This document shows positions 10,440 through 18,537 of a stretch of 64,000 nucleotides of DNA, piece by piece. The translations under genes were made by a program, and so were the position numbers. The stretch covers positions 1-64,000 of the forward strand of contig JAUIDB010000011.1 in the NCBI GenBank assembly GCA_030429235.1, written 5' to 3'. A model generated the notes under the pieces. That model searched no databases. It was not told where the DNA came from and saw nothing but the letters and a program-made list of their open reading frames with translations. The DNA comes from Thermoanaerobaculia bacterium (lineage in GTDB: Bacteria > Acidobacteriota > Thermoanaerobaculia > Multivoradales > JAIOJS01). Within the stretch, counting starts at the first letter, position 1, and every line of letters starts with the position of its first letter.

Positions 10440-10516
10440 CGGTCGGCGGGTGGCGGCGTAGTCGGGGAGGCGCGCCACGTGTCACCAGGCGTCCGGAAGC
10501 CCAGACGCCGCTGCGG

Positions 10517-10522
10517 TAGACT
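10517..10522 (+). promoter_or_regulatory. Putative -10 element of the 5'-nucleotidase gene
   Basis: TAGACT ends 10 nt before the ATG at 10533. No ribosome-binding site is seen, so the transcript would be leaderless or nearly so. Confidence 0.35.
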
Positions 10523-10532
10523 GTGCGACTCC

Positions 10533-12101
10533 ATGGCGTCATCCGTTTCCCTTCCCGAGATACCCCAGCGAGCCACGAGCCAGGTTTGGCGCGGGGTCGC
10601 GGTGCTGCTGACCCTGGCCCTGCTCTCCCTTTCGCTGGGCTGTGGCACGTACTACGACGACAAGGTCGAGCCGGAGCGCCTGTGGGTGCACTACTTCAAC
10701 GACTGGCACGGCCGACTGGAGCCCTTCCAGCGCCCCGGCAGCGATCGGTCGGTTGGCGGCGCAGCCCGGCTCTTTACGCTGGTTCAAGCGCGTCGCGCGG
10801 CGGCGCTGGCCGATGGAGCCGATCACCTCCTGATCATCGCGGGAGACATTCTCCAGGGCACTCCCCTTTCGACCGTCTTCCGGGGCGAGCCCGACTTCGA
10901 ACTGCTGCGACGGATGAGCGTCGACGCCATGAGTCTGGGTAACCACGAGTTCGACTTCGGCCAGCCCAACCTGGCGAGCCGAATCGCTCAGGCCAACTTT
11001 CCGATTCTGGCCGCCAACGTGTTCGGTCCCGATGGAGAGGTGCTGACCGCGGGCAGCACGGTGATCGAGCTCCCCGAGACGCGCCGTAAGGTCGCGATCC
11101 TCGGATTGGTGACCGCTGACGTGCCGATCACGACCCACCGCCGCAACGTCGAGGGGCTGACCTTCCAGGACCCGGTCGAAGCCGCGGCACGCGAACTCCC
11201 GGCCCTGGTCGAGTCGACGGACTTCGTCATCGTGCTTTCGCACTGTGGGTTGGCCGTCGATCGCCGTCTGGCCAAGCTCCCCGGCGTCGACCTCGTCGTC
11301 GGGGGACACGACCAGCAACTCGTCGAACCAGTGCTCGATGGAGCTCCCATCGTGCAGGCCGGCGAGTGGGGTGAGCATCTCGGTGAGGCTCGCCTGGAGC
11401 GTCTCTACTCCGGTCAGGTACGCCTGGTCGAGAACGAGTATCTGCCGGTGGACGAGCGCGTACCGGCGGACCCCGAGGTCCAGGAGTTCGTCGCCCACTA
11501 CCGGTCCCTGCTCGGCGAGGAGCTCAAGGAGCAGGTCGCAGTGGCCAGAGTGCGCCTGGAGGGGGAGCGAGAAGCGGTGCGGGTGCGAGAAACCAACCTC
11601 GCGGATCTGGTGGTCGACGCGATGCGCGAAACCACTGGTGTCGACATCGCTCTTCTCAACGGCGGAGCGATTCGAGCCTCGATCGAGGAGGGGCCGATTA
11701 CCCTCGAGAACGTGCTCGAGGTGCTGCCCTTCGACAATCGCCTGCAGAGCACGGTCCTCACCGGACGTCAACTCCGACAGCTTCTCGAGCGTTCGTTCGG
11801 CTTGCTGGAGGAGGGGGGGGACATGGGGGGCTTCCTGCAGGTCTCCGGGCTTCGGGCCGAGGTGCGAGCCGGCGAGCTGGTGCGGGTCGAGATCGCGGGG
11901 GAACCGCTGAATCCAACGCGAGAGTACCGGGTCGCGACCACCGATTTCCTGGCTCTCGGGGGCGATGGCTACCAGAGTCTGGTCGAACACACCTGGGTCG
12001 ACTCGGGCTACACGCTGTCGGATTCTCTGACCCAGCGACTCCGCGAACTGGGTGAGGTTTCCATCGAGGTCGATGGCCGGCTGCAGAGGCATCCGGGTTA
12101 G
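10533..12101 (+). CDS. 5'-nucleotidase/UshA-family metallophosphatase lipoprotein
   Basis: A 522-aa exported protein. The N-terminus has a signal sequence ending in the lipobox LSLGC, so it should be a lipoprotein. The metallophosphatase domain shows the dimetal motifs FNDWHGRLEP, AGDILQGTPLS, GNHEFDFGQ, SHCGLA and GGHDQQ. The C-terminal 5'-nucleotidase domain carries NGGAIRASIEEG, PFDN and the substrate-binding GGDGYQSL. The family removes phosphate from extracellular nucleotides or splits 2',3'-cyclic nucleotides; the exact substrate cannot be read from sequence. The start at 10533 was chosen for the lipoprotein signal. Confidence 0.92.
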   Translation: MASSVSLPEIPQRATSQVWRGVAVLLTLALLSLSLGCGTYYDDKVEPERLWVHYFNDWHGRLEPFQRPGSDRSVGGAARLFTLVQARRAAALADGADHLLIIAGDILQGTPLSTVFRGEPDFELLRRMSVDAMSLGNHEFDFGQPNLASRIAQANFPILAANVFGPDGEVLTAGSTVIELPETRRKVAILGLVTADVPITTHRRNVEGLTFQDPVEAAARELPALVESTDFVIVLSHCGLAVDRRLAKLPGVDLVVGGHDQQLVEPVLDGAPIVQAGEWGEHLGEARLERLYSGQVRLVENEYLPVDERVPADPEVQEFVAHYRSLLGEELKEQVAVARVRLEGEREAVRVRETNLADLVVDAMRETTGVDIALLNGGAIRASIEEGPITLENVLEVLPFDNRLQSTVLTGRQLRQLLERSFGLLEEGGDMGGFLQVSGLRAEVRAGELVRVEIAGEPLNPTREYRVATTDFLALGGDGYQSLVEHTWVDSGYTLSDSLTQRLRELGEVSIEVDGRLQRHPG

Positions 12102-12143
12102 AATCGGTCGATCCATTCGGAGAAACGGGACGGAAGAAGGAGG
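12099..12143 (+). promoter_or_regulatory. Putative -10 and Shine-Dalgarno of the FHA-RDD gene
   Basis: TAGAAT (12099-12104, overlapping the stop of the nucleotidase gene) could serve as a -10. A full AAGGAGG (12137-12143) follows and sits 6 nt before an ATC codon at 12150. The ribosome-binding site fixes the start region even though no ATG, GTG or TTG is available there. Confidence 0.6.
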
Positions 12144-12149
12144 CCCACC

Positions 12150-13280
12150 ATCGAGACCCGAGCCACCTACCACCTCGACATCGAGGGGCAGCGCTTCGAG
12201 CTGGGTACCGGCGAGACCACGATCGGTCGCAGTCGAACCTGCTTTATCACTCTGCGAGATCCGGCGGCTAGCCGCACCCATCTCACGGTGACGATCGACG
12301 GGGACGGAGTTCGGGTTCGGGATATGAACTCGAGCAACGGTACCTACTTCAACGGTCAACCCCTGGTCGACGAACGGCCTCTGACCGATGGGGACCGTTT
12401 GACCATCGGCGAGACGGAGCTCGTGTTCGGGGTGGATCAGGTACGGTCGACGGCGCTCCCCGAAGATAGCCCCAGCGCCACCGTTCGGGTCGAGCTCGCG
12501 CTGCGGCCCTGCATCCGGTGCGGAGTCGATCTGGCCCTAGGCACGCAGGTCTGCCCGCGGTGTCGGCAGGATCAGCAGCAACCGGTGGAGCCTGCGGAGC
12601 CCGCCGAAGCACCACCCGCACCGACCGAGGACCAGGCCGATGCACCTCCCGCGGTGGCGGATTCGTCTCCCCAGGTTGCGGCTCCGGCTCCTCCGCCGGT
12701 GCCGACGCCAGTGGCCGCCCCGCCGCCACCACCACCTCGCCCAACCCCAGAGCCAGCGACCCCGGATCCCGTGGCGCCACCCCTGGTGGCGGCACCACCG
12801 CCAGTGGCCGAGATCGAACTCGATCCCGCCCCGGTAGCAGCGTCGGCTCCGCTCGTCGCCCGGCCAGGGGTGACGGACTCGAATCCCGAGTTCGCTCCTC
12901 CCGCCGGCTTCTGGATCCGACTGCTCGGTTGGGTGGTCGATGCCGTGTGGATCAACTTGACTCTCATCCTGGTCGGACTGCTCCTGCCCGGCAGCGTGCA
13001 GTCGGTCGTGGGCGGCATTCTCGGTCTGGCCCTGGGTCTTGGCGTTCCCATCATCGGATGGGGACGCTACGGCACGACGCCTGGCAAGCGGCTGTTCAAA
13101 CTCTACGTGTGCACGGTCGAGGGAGAGGTCGGAATCGGCTACGGGCGGGCCGCGCTACGTCTCGTCGGCTACGTGTGTAGTGGCCTCCTGCTCTGCATCG
13201 GGTTCCTGATGATCGGATTGACACCCGCCAAGCGGGGATTGCACGATCATCTGGCCGGAACCTACGTCGCCCGACGTTAG
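12150..13280 (+). CDS. FHA - zinc ribbon - RDD membrane protein (apparent ATC start)
   Basis: A 376-aa protein. An N-terminal FHA domain (GRSRTCF...ASRTHLTV...NSSNGTYFNG) would bind phosphothreonine; a zinc ribbon follows (CIRCG...CPRC), then a Pro/Ala-rich linker of about 130 residues and a C-terminal RDD membrane domain (RLLGWVVDAVW to the end). The first canonical start in frame, GTG 12288, would cut the FHA fold after its conserved GRS and SxxH strands. Only CTG codons and an ATC lie upstream, after the in-frame stop at 12099. The ATC at 12150 has a perfect Shine-Dalgarno 6 nt away, so translation probably starts there. A sequence error is the main alternative. Confidence 0.8.
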   Translation: METRATYHLDIEGQRFELGTGETTIGRSRTCFITLRDPAASRTHLTVTIDGDGVRVRDMNSSNGTYFNGQPLVDERPLTDGDRLTIGETELVFGVDQVRSTALPEDSPSATVRVELALRPCIRCGVDLALGTQVCPRCRQDQQQPVEPAEPAEAPPAPTEDQADAPPAVADSSPQVAAPAPPPVPTPVAAPPPPPPRPTPEPATPDPVAPPLVAAPPPVAEIELDPAPVAASAPLVARPGVTDSNPEFAPPAGFWIRLLGWVVDAVWINLTLILVGLLLPGSVQSVVGGILGLALGLGVPIIGWGRYGTTPGKRLFKLYVCTVEGEVGIGYGRAALRLVGYVCSGLLLCIGFLMIGLTPAKRGLHDHLAGTYVARR

Positions 13281-14203: not shown

Positions 14204-15154
14204 ATGACAGCAGTAGGCAGCGAACCGCGAGGGTTTGGCCCACGGAGCTTGGGGGCGCTCGGCGGTTTCGTGCTGGGGGCGGTGCTGTTGGTTGCCGCTT
14301 GGGCCAAGGCACTCGATATTGCGGCCTTCTCCCAGCAGATCGCCAACGAAGGATTGACCCTCGGGCTGGGCGCCGGTCTGGTGGCCTTCATGGCACTGGC
14401 ACTCGAGGTTGGGTTGGGGGTGTTGCTGCTGTCGGGAGTTCGCCGACCCTGGGTCTTGTGGCCTTCGACCGCCCTGGTGGCCCTCTTCCTCTTCCTGACG
14501 GGACGGAGCTATTGGCGCTTCGCGCAGGGCGAGGAGGTGGCGCTCGACTGCGGGTGTTTCGGGAACCTGGTGTCGAGAACGCCTGCCGAGGCCTTCTGGC
14601 AGGACCTTCTCCTTCTGGTGCCGGCCCTCTTGCTGGCGTTCATCGCGGTGCCGCGGGGGGCCTTTCCGCGCTGGCGCACGGTGAGTGCCGGGATCGCCGC
14701 GTTGGCGGTGGTGGTCTTTGCTTATCTCGCTCCCGACCTGCCACTCGATGACCTGGCGACGCGCCTCAAGCCCGACGTCCAGCTCTCCGAACTCTGCGTC
14801 GGAGAGGACGATGCGGCGGTCTGCCTGACCGATGTAGCCCCGGAGCTCACCGAGGGGGAGCACTGGGTCGTGCTCGTCGATCTCGCCGAGTCGCCCGAGA
14901 CCTGGGTCGACCCTCTCAACGAGCTGACCCTGGCCGGTCACGGTGCGCCCCCGCTCGTGCTGACGGCAGCCTCGCCGGAAGCGCTCGGTGAGTTCCGCTG
15001 GACCTGGGGGCCGACGTTTGAGTTGCGCGAGACCCCAGAGCCGCTCCTTCGCCCCCTCTACCGCACCCTGCCTCGCTCCTTTCTGTCTCGCGACGGGGTG
15101 GTCGTGCTAACGTCGCCCGGGCTGCCGCCCGCGGTGGCGGAATCTCAACCCTGA
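14204..15154 (+). CDS. MauE/DoxX-like membrane protein
   Basis: A 316-aa protein. The N-terminal half holds four predicted membrane helices (about residues 20-36, 52-77, 84-100, 132-153) and the cysteine motif CGCFG (116-120), which is characteristic of MauE-type DoxX relatives that work with periplasmic thioredoxin-like proteins in disulfide handling. After another hydrophobic segment (about 161-178) comes a soluble domain of about 140 residues without a CxxC pair. It lies 41 bp upstream of a secreted thioredoxin-fold gene, which supports a shared redox role. The ATG is preceded by GGGAGAG. Confidence 0.75.
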   Translation: MTAVGSEPRGFGPRSLGALGGFVLGAVLLVAAWAKALDIAAFSQQIANEGLTLGLGAGLVAFMALALEVGLGVLLLSGVRRPWVLWPSTALVALFLFLTGRSYWRFAQGEEVALDCGCFGNLVSRTPAEAFWQDLLLLVPALLLAFIAVPRGAFPRWRTVSAGIAALAVVVFAYLAPDLPLDDLATRLKPDVQLSELCVGEDDAAVCLTDVAPELTEGEHWVVLVDLAESPETWVDPLNELTLAGHGAPPLVLTAASPEALGEFRWTWGPTFELRETPEPLLRPLYRTLPRSFLSRDGVVVLTSPGLPPAVAESQP

Positions 15155-15195: not shown

Positions 15196-16014
15196 ATGAT
15201 CGCTCGTTTTCGTCGTCTCAGAACCCCGCTCATGATCCTCGGCCTGACCTTCGGTCTGGTGGTCGCCGCGGGAGGTCAGGAGATCCCTCCCGACGCCGTC
15301 TTGCAAGGATTCGAACCGACGGGGGCCTACGACCTCCAGATCGACGGTACGGTCGATTCCGCGGCGCGCCTGTTCGAGGCCCAGCGTGCTGGCAGCGTGC
15401 TGCTGATCCAGAGCGACTCCTTCCCCGATCCGGTGCTGTTGACGCCGAGGTCGAAGCAGGTCGAGCTGGTGGCCGCGGCCAAAGTGGTGGAGCGAGAGGA
15501 TGGTCGCATCGACATCCTGTCCGATGCCGCGCCGGAATCTCAGGGCGAGTTCTCGATCGACAACGGCGAAGTGGTGTTTGCGGTGGGCGACCATTCCGCT
15601 CGCCTCGTGCAGCGCCCGTACCTTCTCGGTCTGCAGACGGGATCTGCCATGGTCGAACACGATGCTTCGTACGGCTTCCGCGCCGGCGAGTACAAGCCCT
15701 CGGGGCCGATGATCCGCAACCTCGCGGCCGTCGATTCACCGGTGCGCATCCGCGTCTACTTCGGTTCCTGGTGCCCGCACTGCAAGGAGATGGTGCCGAA
15801 GGCCCTCAGTGTGGAGAAGGCGCTGGCGGGTTCCAATCTCAGCTTCGAGTACTACGGCCTGCCGCGACCCTTCGGCGATGAGCCCGAGGCCCTGAAGGCC
15901 GATATCCGCGCCGTACCTACCGGCGTCGTCTATCGGGATGGCAAGGAGATTGGCCGGCTAGAAGGGGGGTCCTGGAAGATTCCCGAGTTGGCGCTGAAGC
16001 GGCTGCTCCAGTAG
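15196..16014 (+). CDS. Secreted thioredoxin-fold protein
   Basis: A 272-aa protein with a clear N-terminal signal peptide (MIARFRRL..., hydrophobic to about residue 25). A beta-rich N-terminal part of about 150 residues is not recognised. The C-terminal half is a thioredoxin-like domain with the active site GSWCPHC (Cys193, Cys196) and a cis-Pro region near VPTGVVYRDG. It likely acts as a periplasmic thiol-disulfide oxidoreductase, possibly fed electrons by the MauE-like protein encoded just upstream. It ends 7 bp before the LuxC-like gene, so all three probably form one operon. Confidence 0.8.
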   Translation: MIARFRRLRTPLMILGLTFGLVVAAGGQEIPPDAVLQGFEPTGAYDLQIDGTVDSAARLFEAQRAGSVLLIQSDSFPDPVLLTPRSKQVELVAAAKVVEREDGRIDILSDAAPESQGEFSIDNGEVVFAVGDHSARLVQRPYLLGLQTGSAMVEHDASYGFRAGEYKPSGPMIRNLAAVDSPVRIRVYFGSWCPHCKEMVPKALSVEKALAGSNLSFEYYGLPRPFGDEPEALKADIRAVPTGVVYRDGKEIGRLEGGSWKIPELALKRLLQ

Positions 16015-16021
16015 AGGCCCG

Positions 16022-17200
16022 ATGAGCGACCAGCGGCAGGTGGGGTCCCCGGCCGACTGGGACTGGCGCCAGGCCGCAGCCGCGATGGCCTCGATTGGCG
16101 ACGACGAACTGCTCGAAGCCTGGAATCAGATCCTCGCGGAGTTTCTCGATTCCCGGTCGCCGGTGCGCCGAGGAATCGACCCCGACCTCATCGCAGCCAC
16201 CGGCACGGCGCCGGCGTCCCTCCAGGCGGGATTCGAGGCGGTCCTCGGTGGCGTCCGGGGCAAGGCCGCCGAGGACCTCGTTCGACGGGCGGCCGGTCGA
16301 CGGCGTTGTGCCCCCCTGCTCGTGGTCCTCGCCGGGAACCTGCCCGCTCTCGTAGTGCAACCGCTCCTACCGGCCCTGGCGCTACGTCGGCCCGTGGTGG
16401 TGAAAACCGCGTCCGAGCTTCCTCAGGTGCCAGAGGCTCTGGTCACAGCGCTCGTTCGCCGCCTGCCGGCACTGGCCGATGGGGTTCTCGTGCGGTCGTG
16501 GCGAGGTGGAAGCGCCGCGGTGGAAGGCCAGTGGCTGGGCGTGGCCGACCAGGTCGTGGCTTACGGTGGCGCGGAGGCGATGGAACAGCTCCGGAGCCGA
16601 TTCTCCGGGGAGCTTCTGGACTACGGGCCCAAGTTGAGCTTGGCGGTCAGCGGGGGGGAGGACGACCCGCTCGACCAAGCGGACCGGCTGGTGCGCGATA
16701 TCGTTCTATTCGAGCAGCGAGGTTGCTTGTCGGTCCAGTTGCTGTTCGTGACGGAGCGGGCTGATGCCTGGGGCGAAGCCTTGAGCGCTGCCCTGCTGGA
16801 GCGGTCGCGCAGTTGGCCCGCGCCGCGTCCATCGACCTTCGAGGCGGCTCGCGTGCAGCAGGCCCGGTTGGAGGCGCAGAGCCGCGGTGCCTGGGTCAGC
16901 TCCGGGGCGCTTCGGTCGGGCACCGTGATCGTCGAGCCTGAGGGAGCGGAGGTCCGTCCCTCGCCTGGCCTACGGACGGTGATCGTGCATCCGCTGCGGC
17001 GGATCGAGGAGCTTCCCGATCGACTCGCTCGCTTCGCCGGCCAACTGCAGGGCGTCGGAGTGTCCGGTCCGCTGGGGACCTCGGTGCGTCGCGCCTTGGG
17101 TGAGTTGGGAGTTTCGCGGTTTGCGCCCTTTGGGGAGTTGCAGTCGCCCGATGCCAGCTGGTGCAACGGGGGGAGAGACCTCTTGGAGAGCCTGGCCTAG
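16022..17200 (+). CDS. luxC: LuxC-type acyl-CoA/acyl-protein reductase
   Basis: A 392-aa member of the LuxC family, which reduces activated fatty acyl groups to aldehydes with NADPH in the aldehyde dehydrogenase fold. Visible family features are the nucleotide-binding part (VVLAGNLPALVVQPLLPALA, then RRPVVVKTAS) and the catalytic cysteine in FEQRGCLS (Cys235). No luxAB or luxD is present. A LuxE-type acyl-activating enzyme is encoded 3 kb away on the other strand, and the two probably make an aldehyde together. The gene is the third of the MauE-like/thioredoxin operon and its last 4 bp overlap the convergent VWA-FHA gene. Confidence 0.85.
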   Translation: MSDQRQVGSPADWDWRQAAAAMASIGDDELLEAWNQILAEFLDSRSPVRRGIDPDLIAATGTAPASLQAGFEAVLGGVRGKAAEDLVRRAAGRRRCAPLLVVLAGNLPALVVQPLLPALALRRPVVVKTASELPQVPEALVTALVRRLPALADGVLVRSWRGGSAAVEGQWLGVADQVVAYGGAEAMEQLRSRFSGELLDYGPKLSLAVSGGEDDPLDQADRLVRDIVLFEQRGCLSVQLLFVTERADAWGEALSAALLERSRSWPAPRPSTFEAARVQQARLEAQSRGAWVSSGALRSGTVIVEPEGAEVRPSPGLRTVIVHPLRRIEELPDRLARFAGQLQGVGVSGPLGTSVRRALGELGVSRFAPFGELQSPDASWCNGGRDLLESLA

Positions 17201-18537
17201 GAGAGGGAGCGAGCCTTGCTGCGATACTCGAACTCGGTGCGGCCGGCCCGAATCACGTCGCCCGACTTCAGGAGATGGGATCGCACCGCTTCGTCGTTGA
17301 CGTAGGTGCCGTTGGTCGAACCCATGTCGATCACGTAGTAGCGGCCATCCTCGGGCACGATCTTGAAGTGACGGGCCGAAAGGGCGGTATCGGGGATACC
17401 GATGCTATTGCTGCGAGCGTCTCGCCCGACCGCGAACGCACTTTCGGAGCTGAGCATGTAGGAGCGAGGGTCGCCGCCCTGGGTCCGGATGGTGATCATG
17501 TTCTCATCGGCGAGGACCCGGGTGACCTCGAGCACCGCCGGGTCGAAAGCGTCTTCCAGCGAGCTGGGCGGTTGGACCGGGAACTCGGCGGTCTGGCGTA
17601 GTTCCATGATGCCCCGGTTCTGGAGGCGGGCGATGAGGGACTCCTCCTCGCAGCGGGGGCAGGTCGCTCCTTCGAAAGGGACGGCGCCTCCACAGCGCGG
17701 ACAGTAGTGTGCCGCCTCGGACTCGCTCGGACCCTGCCGTAGGTTGCCTAGGAGTCGCGCCAAGACGGCGGCCAGGACCAGGATCGTGACCAGGGCGAGA
17801 ATGAGTGGCAGGGGCAGCGTGTCCCGCTCCTCGGCCGGGCCCTCGGAGCCGGTCGATTCCCGGCTGACGGGAGGCGTGGCGGGTTCGGTCGCCGGGGGCT
17901 GCACCACGATGGTCGCCGTGTCCTCCTGCTGCTGTTGTTCGATCTCGTCCCGTGATCTGGAGATTGCTTCGACCATCTGGCCCGCTTCGCCGGAACCCAG
18001 GTACTCACCGCCGGTCAGCAACGCCAATCGGCGTAGTGTTCTCTCTTGCAGGCTCCGGCCCATGGCCAGGGGTAGGATCCGGACCCCCTGGCTCTCGCAC
18101 ACGCGGGCTACGTCCTCGAGGGTCGTGGCCGAGTTTTCGTCTCGGCCGTCGGTGGCCAGGAGAATCACGCCGCCCTCGGGCATCGCTCGCGCCGCCACCA
18201 CCAGGGCGTCGTGGAGTTGCGTGTAGTTGCCCACCGGATCGAGCGCTTCCAGCGCGGCCGTCACGTCGTTGGGCGTCGCGCCGAGTTCGACCAGCCATCG
18301 GGGCTCGTCGTCGAACGCGAGCAGCCCGGTGGGCTGGTCCGACGGCAACAGGGCCAGGGTGGCGGCGATCTGGTCGGTAGTCCGGGCCAGGTCTCCGGGA
18401 CGCAGGGATCGGCTGGTATCCACGGCCACCGTGACCGGGATCGGCGCAGTGTCGGCGGCCGATTCCTGGGCTACGACGAGGGAGGACAGAAGGGCCAGGA
18501 GGAGAAGGGTGGCCGCAGCCAGACGAGATCGATCCAT
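17197..18537 (-). CDS. VWA - zinc ribbon - FHA membrane protein
   Basis: A 446-aa protein with a signal peptide, a von Willebrand factor A domain exposed to the periplasm (MIDAS DTSRS, then LATDGRDE), a Pro/Thr linker, one membrane helix (about residues 246-266), a cytoplasmic zinc ribbon (CPRCGG...CPRC) and a C-terminal FHA domain (AVGRDARSN, ALSARHFKI, GSTNGTYVN). It could link a periplasmic binding event to a phosphothreonine signal inside. The ATG has AGGAG upstream. It is the last gene of the LuxE-porin group and shares the rare zinc ribbon/FHA pairing with the protein at 12150. Confidence 0.85.
   Translation of the reverse strand: MDRSRLAAATLLLLALLSSLVVAQESAADTAPIPVTVAVDTSRSLRPGDLARTTDQIAATLALLPSDQPTGLLAFDDEPRWLVELGATPNDVTAALEALDPVGNYTQLHDALVVAARAMPEGGVILLATDGRDENSATTLEDVARVCESQGVRILPLAMGRSLQERTLRRLALLTGGEYLGSGEAGQMVEAISRSRDEIEQQQQEDTATIVVQPPATEPATPPVSRESTGSEGPAEERDTLPLPLILALVTILVLAAVLARLLGNLRQGPSESEAAHYCPRCGGAVPFEGATCPRCEEESLIARLQNRGIMELRQTAEFPVQPPSSLEDAFDPAVLEVTRVLADENMITIRTQGGDPRSYMLSSESAFAVGRDARSNSIGIPDTALSARHFKIVPEDGRYYVIDMGSTNGTYVNDEAVRSHLLKSGDVIRAGRTEFEYRSKARSLS

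Follow-up and report, generated by a model that had tools for sequence, protein, structure and literature searches.

The FHA-RDD gene of the source genome (G000) very probably begins at an AUC codon, which lies at positions 12150-12152 (ATC, + strand) of the window, the whole 64,000-nucleotide stretch that was analysed. From the surrounding sequence and a comparison of orthologues, this proposed start codon has the look of a genuine, if weak, initiation site and not of a sequencing error. Read from the ATC, the gene covers 12150-13280 (+), with 376 codons plus a TAG stop, and the frame is open to 13277.

Start site of the FHA-RDD gene

The ATC is preceded by a perfect Shine-Dalgarno (SD) sequence, AAGGAGG (12137-12143, +), at a distance of 6 nt, the spacer being CCCACC (12144-12149, +). 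The upstream gene encodes a 5'-nucleotidase/metallophosphoesterase (10479-12101, +; longest frame from GTG 10479; Pfam PF02872 and PF00149), whose TAG stop (12099-12101, +) is in frame with the FHA-RDD open reading frame and lies 48 nt before the ATC. ATG, GTG and TTG are absent from all 62 in-frame codons between 12102 and 12287, and the first canonical in-frame start is the GTG at 12288-12290 (+), 46 codons into the gene, which we reject as the start. The preliminary description had placed the ATC 6 nt past a perfect AAGGAGG and had reported no canonical start between the stop at 12099 and the GTG at 12288; both statements are confirmed here. In 444 kb of the genome there are 74 AAGGAGG sites, and only the one in front of the FHA-RDD gene combines a near-cognate codon, no canonical start and a frame of at least 300 codons. 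Folding of the RNA around the start regions revealed no common structure.

Start codons of the orthologues

The comparison set comprised 72 genomes of the order and 149 genomes of the class. The FHA-RDD protein of the congener G001, an independent assembly, is 57% identical to that of G000, and its gene has GGAGG-N6-ATC GAC at the homologous site, with the same SD spacing as in G000. In all four genomes of family f4 (G012, G027, G004 and G020), an SD sequence (GGAGG, GAGGAG or AGGAGG, 7-8 nt before the ATT) is followed by ATT TCT/TCC GAN. The codon at the homologous position is thus AUC in 2/2 genomes of family f1 and AUU in 4/4 genomes of f4, which favours the low-efficiency start suggested earlier; the sample of ATH starts is small, being confined to the f1 pair (G000 and G001) and these four genomes. 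In the protein tree, G000 and G001 form one well supported group and the four f4 genomes another; since the deep forks are weak, the tree is as compatible with a single origin of the ATH start as with two.

No canonical in-frame codon able to start the conserved protein is present in G000 (ATC) or in G012 and G027 (ATT). G001, G004 and G020 each have a canonical in-frame codon 6-15 codons before the ATH codon, which lacks a good SD sequence of its own, and another follows the ATH codon after 8 codons in G001 and 7 codons in G004; because of these nearby codons, the use of ATH is not forced in these three genomes. The starts in family f6 are ATG (G033, G041 and G022) or TTG (G040), those in f9 are GTG or ATG, and that in f18 is GTG. 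In f8, the start is ATG in G016 and G023 and ambiguous in G008 (ATC GCT GTG), which was left out of the count of ATC starts, as translation could plausibly begin at its GTG, two codons further along. Among relatives outside the class, the starts appear canonical where they can be judged.

The neighbouring genes support the orthology of these FHA-RDD genes. The genes for a MauE-like membrane protein (14204-15154, +) and a thioredoxin-fold protein (15196-16014, +), both assigned by Pfam, form a conserved module downstream of the FHA-RDD gene in f1, and they also follow it in f4, f6 and f9. A protein with VWA, zinc-ribbon and FHA parts is encoded nearby in the window (17197-18537, -), and a similar VWA-type protein is found near the FHA-RDD orthologue of G034 (L222).

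Proposed role of the AUC start

The AUC at 12150 would pair imperfectly with the initiator tRNA; initiation would therefore depend on the strong, well-placed SD sequence and would be repressed by IF3. The combination of IF3 repression and a weak AUC would keep FHA-RDD output low and tied to IF3 activity, and selection would be maintaining this FHA membrane protein at a low level. The preliminary description had proposed a low-efficiency start with regulatory meaning. This reading is supported by the conservation of the codon as ATC or ATT in orthologues; we infer that the AUC functions as a start, that its yield is low, that IF3 may set this yield and that selection may favour the low dose. 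Control by IF3, or another selected low-dose role, is in our judgement the probable reason for the AUC start. A more specific proposal, which we regard as tentative, is that AUC and AUU are kept so that the dose of a phospho-signalling membrane protein follows IF3 activity, within a small IF3 regulon that would consist of infC, the FHA-RDD gene and, in f1, perhaps the lolC/E-like gene (CUG).

The infC gene, which encodes IF3, is autoregulated through its AUU, AUC or AUA start. In the order, infC was located by tblastn, and its start is ATC, ATT, ATA or CTG in most families judged. The infC of G000 (L139, compared with L246, L247, L248 and L164) probably starts at a CTG 10 nt after AAGGAGG. Near-cognate initiation is thus evidently usable in these bacteria. 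In all four f4 genomes infC starts with GTG, so the IF3 start-codon feedback is missing in the family whose FHA-RDD gene uses AUU. The IF3 of G000 retains Y75, R99, R131, R147 and R168 (E. coli numbering), among which we take Y75, R99 and R131 to be linked to fidelity; the IF3 of f4 has F at position 75, and the fidelity-linked positions are mostly kept.

The main rival explanation, which we consider less likely, is that the AUC/AUU start is real but neutral, tolerated by drift and compensated by the SD sequence, with no regulatory role. It would agree with the GUG start of the f4 infC, with the restriction of ATH to six genomes and with the AUG, GUG or UUG found at the same site in other families; those families also show that the gene can do without an ATH start. 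On the other hand, all six f1 and f4 genomes have retained ATH while third positions changed heavily, although a single mutation would give ATG, and f1 and f4 are not grouped together in the protein tree, in which, as stated, the deep forks are weak. These observations argue against neutrality.

Domains and selection downstream of the ATC

The protein consists, in order, of an FHA domain, a zinc-ribbon-like Cys motif, a Pro-rich linker and an RDD membrane domain, and its predicted N-terminus from the ATC start is (M)ETRATYHLDIEGQR. When it is read from the ATC, the Pfam FHA match spans residues 23-87 with 62.9 bits and covers the whole 67-position model, and the RDD match spans residues 251-370 with 46.7 bits; both pass the gathering scores (20.7 and 24.1, respectively). 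The protein falls far below every NCBIfam cut-off for the FHA families TagH, FhaB and GltG.

Translation from the GTG at 12288, or from another downstream canonical codon, with the upstream part left untranslated, is the choice that a gene caller restricted to ATG, GTG and TTG must make, and we consider it very improbable. It would remove 46 codons, the FHA score would drop to 32.7 bits and the match would start only at model position 28. The loss of 27 model positions bears out the earlier statement that the FHA domain needs sequence upstream of this GTG. Furthermore, none of the orthologues examined in the order starts its FHA domain at the position of GTG 12288, the case that the preliminary description had named as decisive against the ATC. 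In the comparison of G000 with G001, codons 1-46 comprise 15 identical, 22 synonymous and 9 nonsynonymous codons, and the 39 base differences are distributed 5/4/30 over the three codon positions, 30/39 being in third positions. This substitution pattern shows that strong purifying selection acts on these codons, which speaks against an untranslated leader. In the 60 nt upstream of the ATC there are 18 identities, close to chance, of which five belong to the shared GGAGG; within the nearest 20 nt, 5/6 matches are GGAGG. The third-position bias on one side of the ATC and the near-chance identity on the other indicate that protein-type conservation begins at the ATC.

A miscalled base or local assembly error hiding an ATG or GTG, the alternative offered in the preliminary description, might be suspected in a draft genome (4.85 Mb in 92 contigs), but it is very unlikely, at most a slight chance, because the independent congener assembly has GGAGG-N6-ATC and four further assemblies, those of f4, have an SD sequence and ATT. 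Equally slight is the chance that readthrough of the nucleotidase TAG at 12099 yields a fusion protein: in G000 the two frames coincide and are separated only by the stop and 48 nt, but the nucleotidase counterpart that also precedes the FHA-RDD gene in G001 ends in a different frame, a uvrA-like gene takes its place in f4 (as it does in f8 and f9), and the linker is not conserved, whereas the SD sequence is.

Comparison with known non-canonical starts

To our knowledge, few bacterial genes besides infC have an AUC or AUU start. Like infC, the FHA-RDD gene has an ATH start with an SD sequence and is an expected target of IF3 discrimination; it differs in encoding a membrane protein instead of IF3, which leaves no apparent loop of feedback. 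The sigR gene of Streptomyces has a GTC (GUC) start that is repressed by IF3 and was examined by mutagenesis and Edman sequencing (PMC5472188). It resembles the FHA-RDD gene as a regulatory-type gene with a strong SD sequence and a conserved non-canonical start, and a nearby canonical in-frame codon misled its annotation (PMC5472188), a similar trap to that in G001, G004 and G020. The sigR start differs in being GUC and in its experimental testing; the AUC/AUU of the FHA-RDD gene is assigned from sequence. In Staphylococcus, cvfC1 (AUU) and ccpN (AUA) have extended SD sequences and about 10% of the AUG yield (PMC13009471). These are likewise conserved ATH starts guided by SD sequences, but the genes are unrelated to FHA-RDD and their starts, unlike the one described here, are supported by ribosome profiling (PMC13009471). 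The pcnB gene of E. coli is reported to be another gene apart from infC whose output an AUU start restricts (Binns and Masters 2002, as cited in PMC13009471); it is unrelated to FHA-RDD and belongs to another phylum.

The FHA-RDD gene thus joins a small known kind, the genes with ATH starts, in a gene family and phylum for which no earlier report was found: our search of the open-access literature returned none on FHA-RDD proteins in Acidobacteriota. Gene callers limited to ATG, GTG and TTG cannot see AUC or AUU starts, and the N-termini annotated for members of the FHA-RDD family are probably incorrect. With an AUC start in f1, AUU in f4 and AUG or GUG in sister families, the gene offers a natural series for studying why such starts persist.

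Near-cognate starts elsewhere in the genome

Near-cognate starts are rare in the G000 genome and not the rule. Coding sequence upstream of predicted starts was sought with a six-frame Markov model in a 1.14-Mb sample with 774 predicted genes; a scan based on codon usage only had been dropped, as antisense open reading frames swamped the signal. The upstream coding log-odds exceeded 6 in 21 of the 774 genes, most of which look like noise or misplaced boundaries. Homology over the missing-start region together with an SD sequence at a near-cognate codon was found in only two of these 21, the FHA-RDD gene and a lolC/E-like gene, and this number is a lower bound because the scan misses genes with a chance canonical codon upstream. 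A third match (C26:107156) was rejected, since an ATG directly follows the ATC and no unusual start is needed.

The lolC/E-like gene (C92:12235, -; L179) encodes an ABC permease and has an apparent CTG start with AGGAG 8 nt before it. No canonical codon is present upstream of its conserved N-terminus, and the CTG is conserved in G001 (L193). In addition, a strong coding signal precedes the first canonical codon on contig C2 (approximately 68500-68620, +); it is interrupted by a stop and lacks an SD sequence, and it may represent a frameshift or a broken gene.
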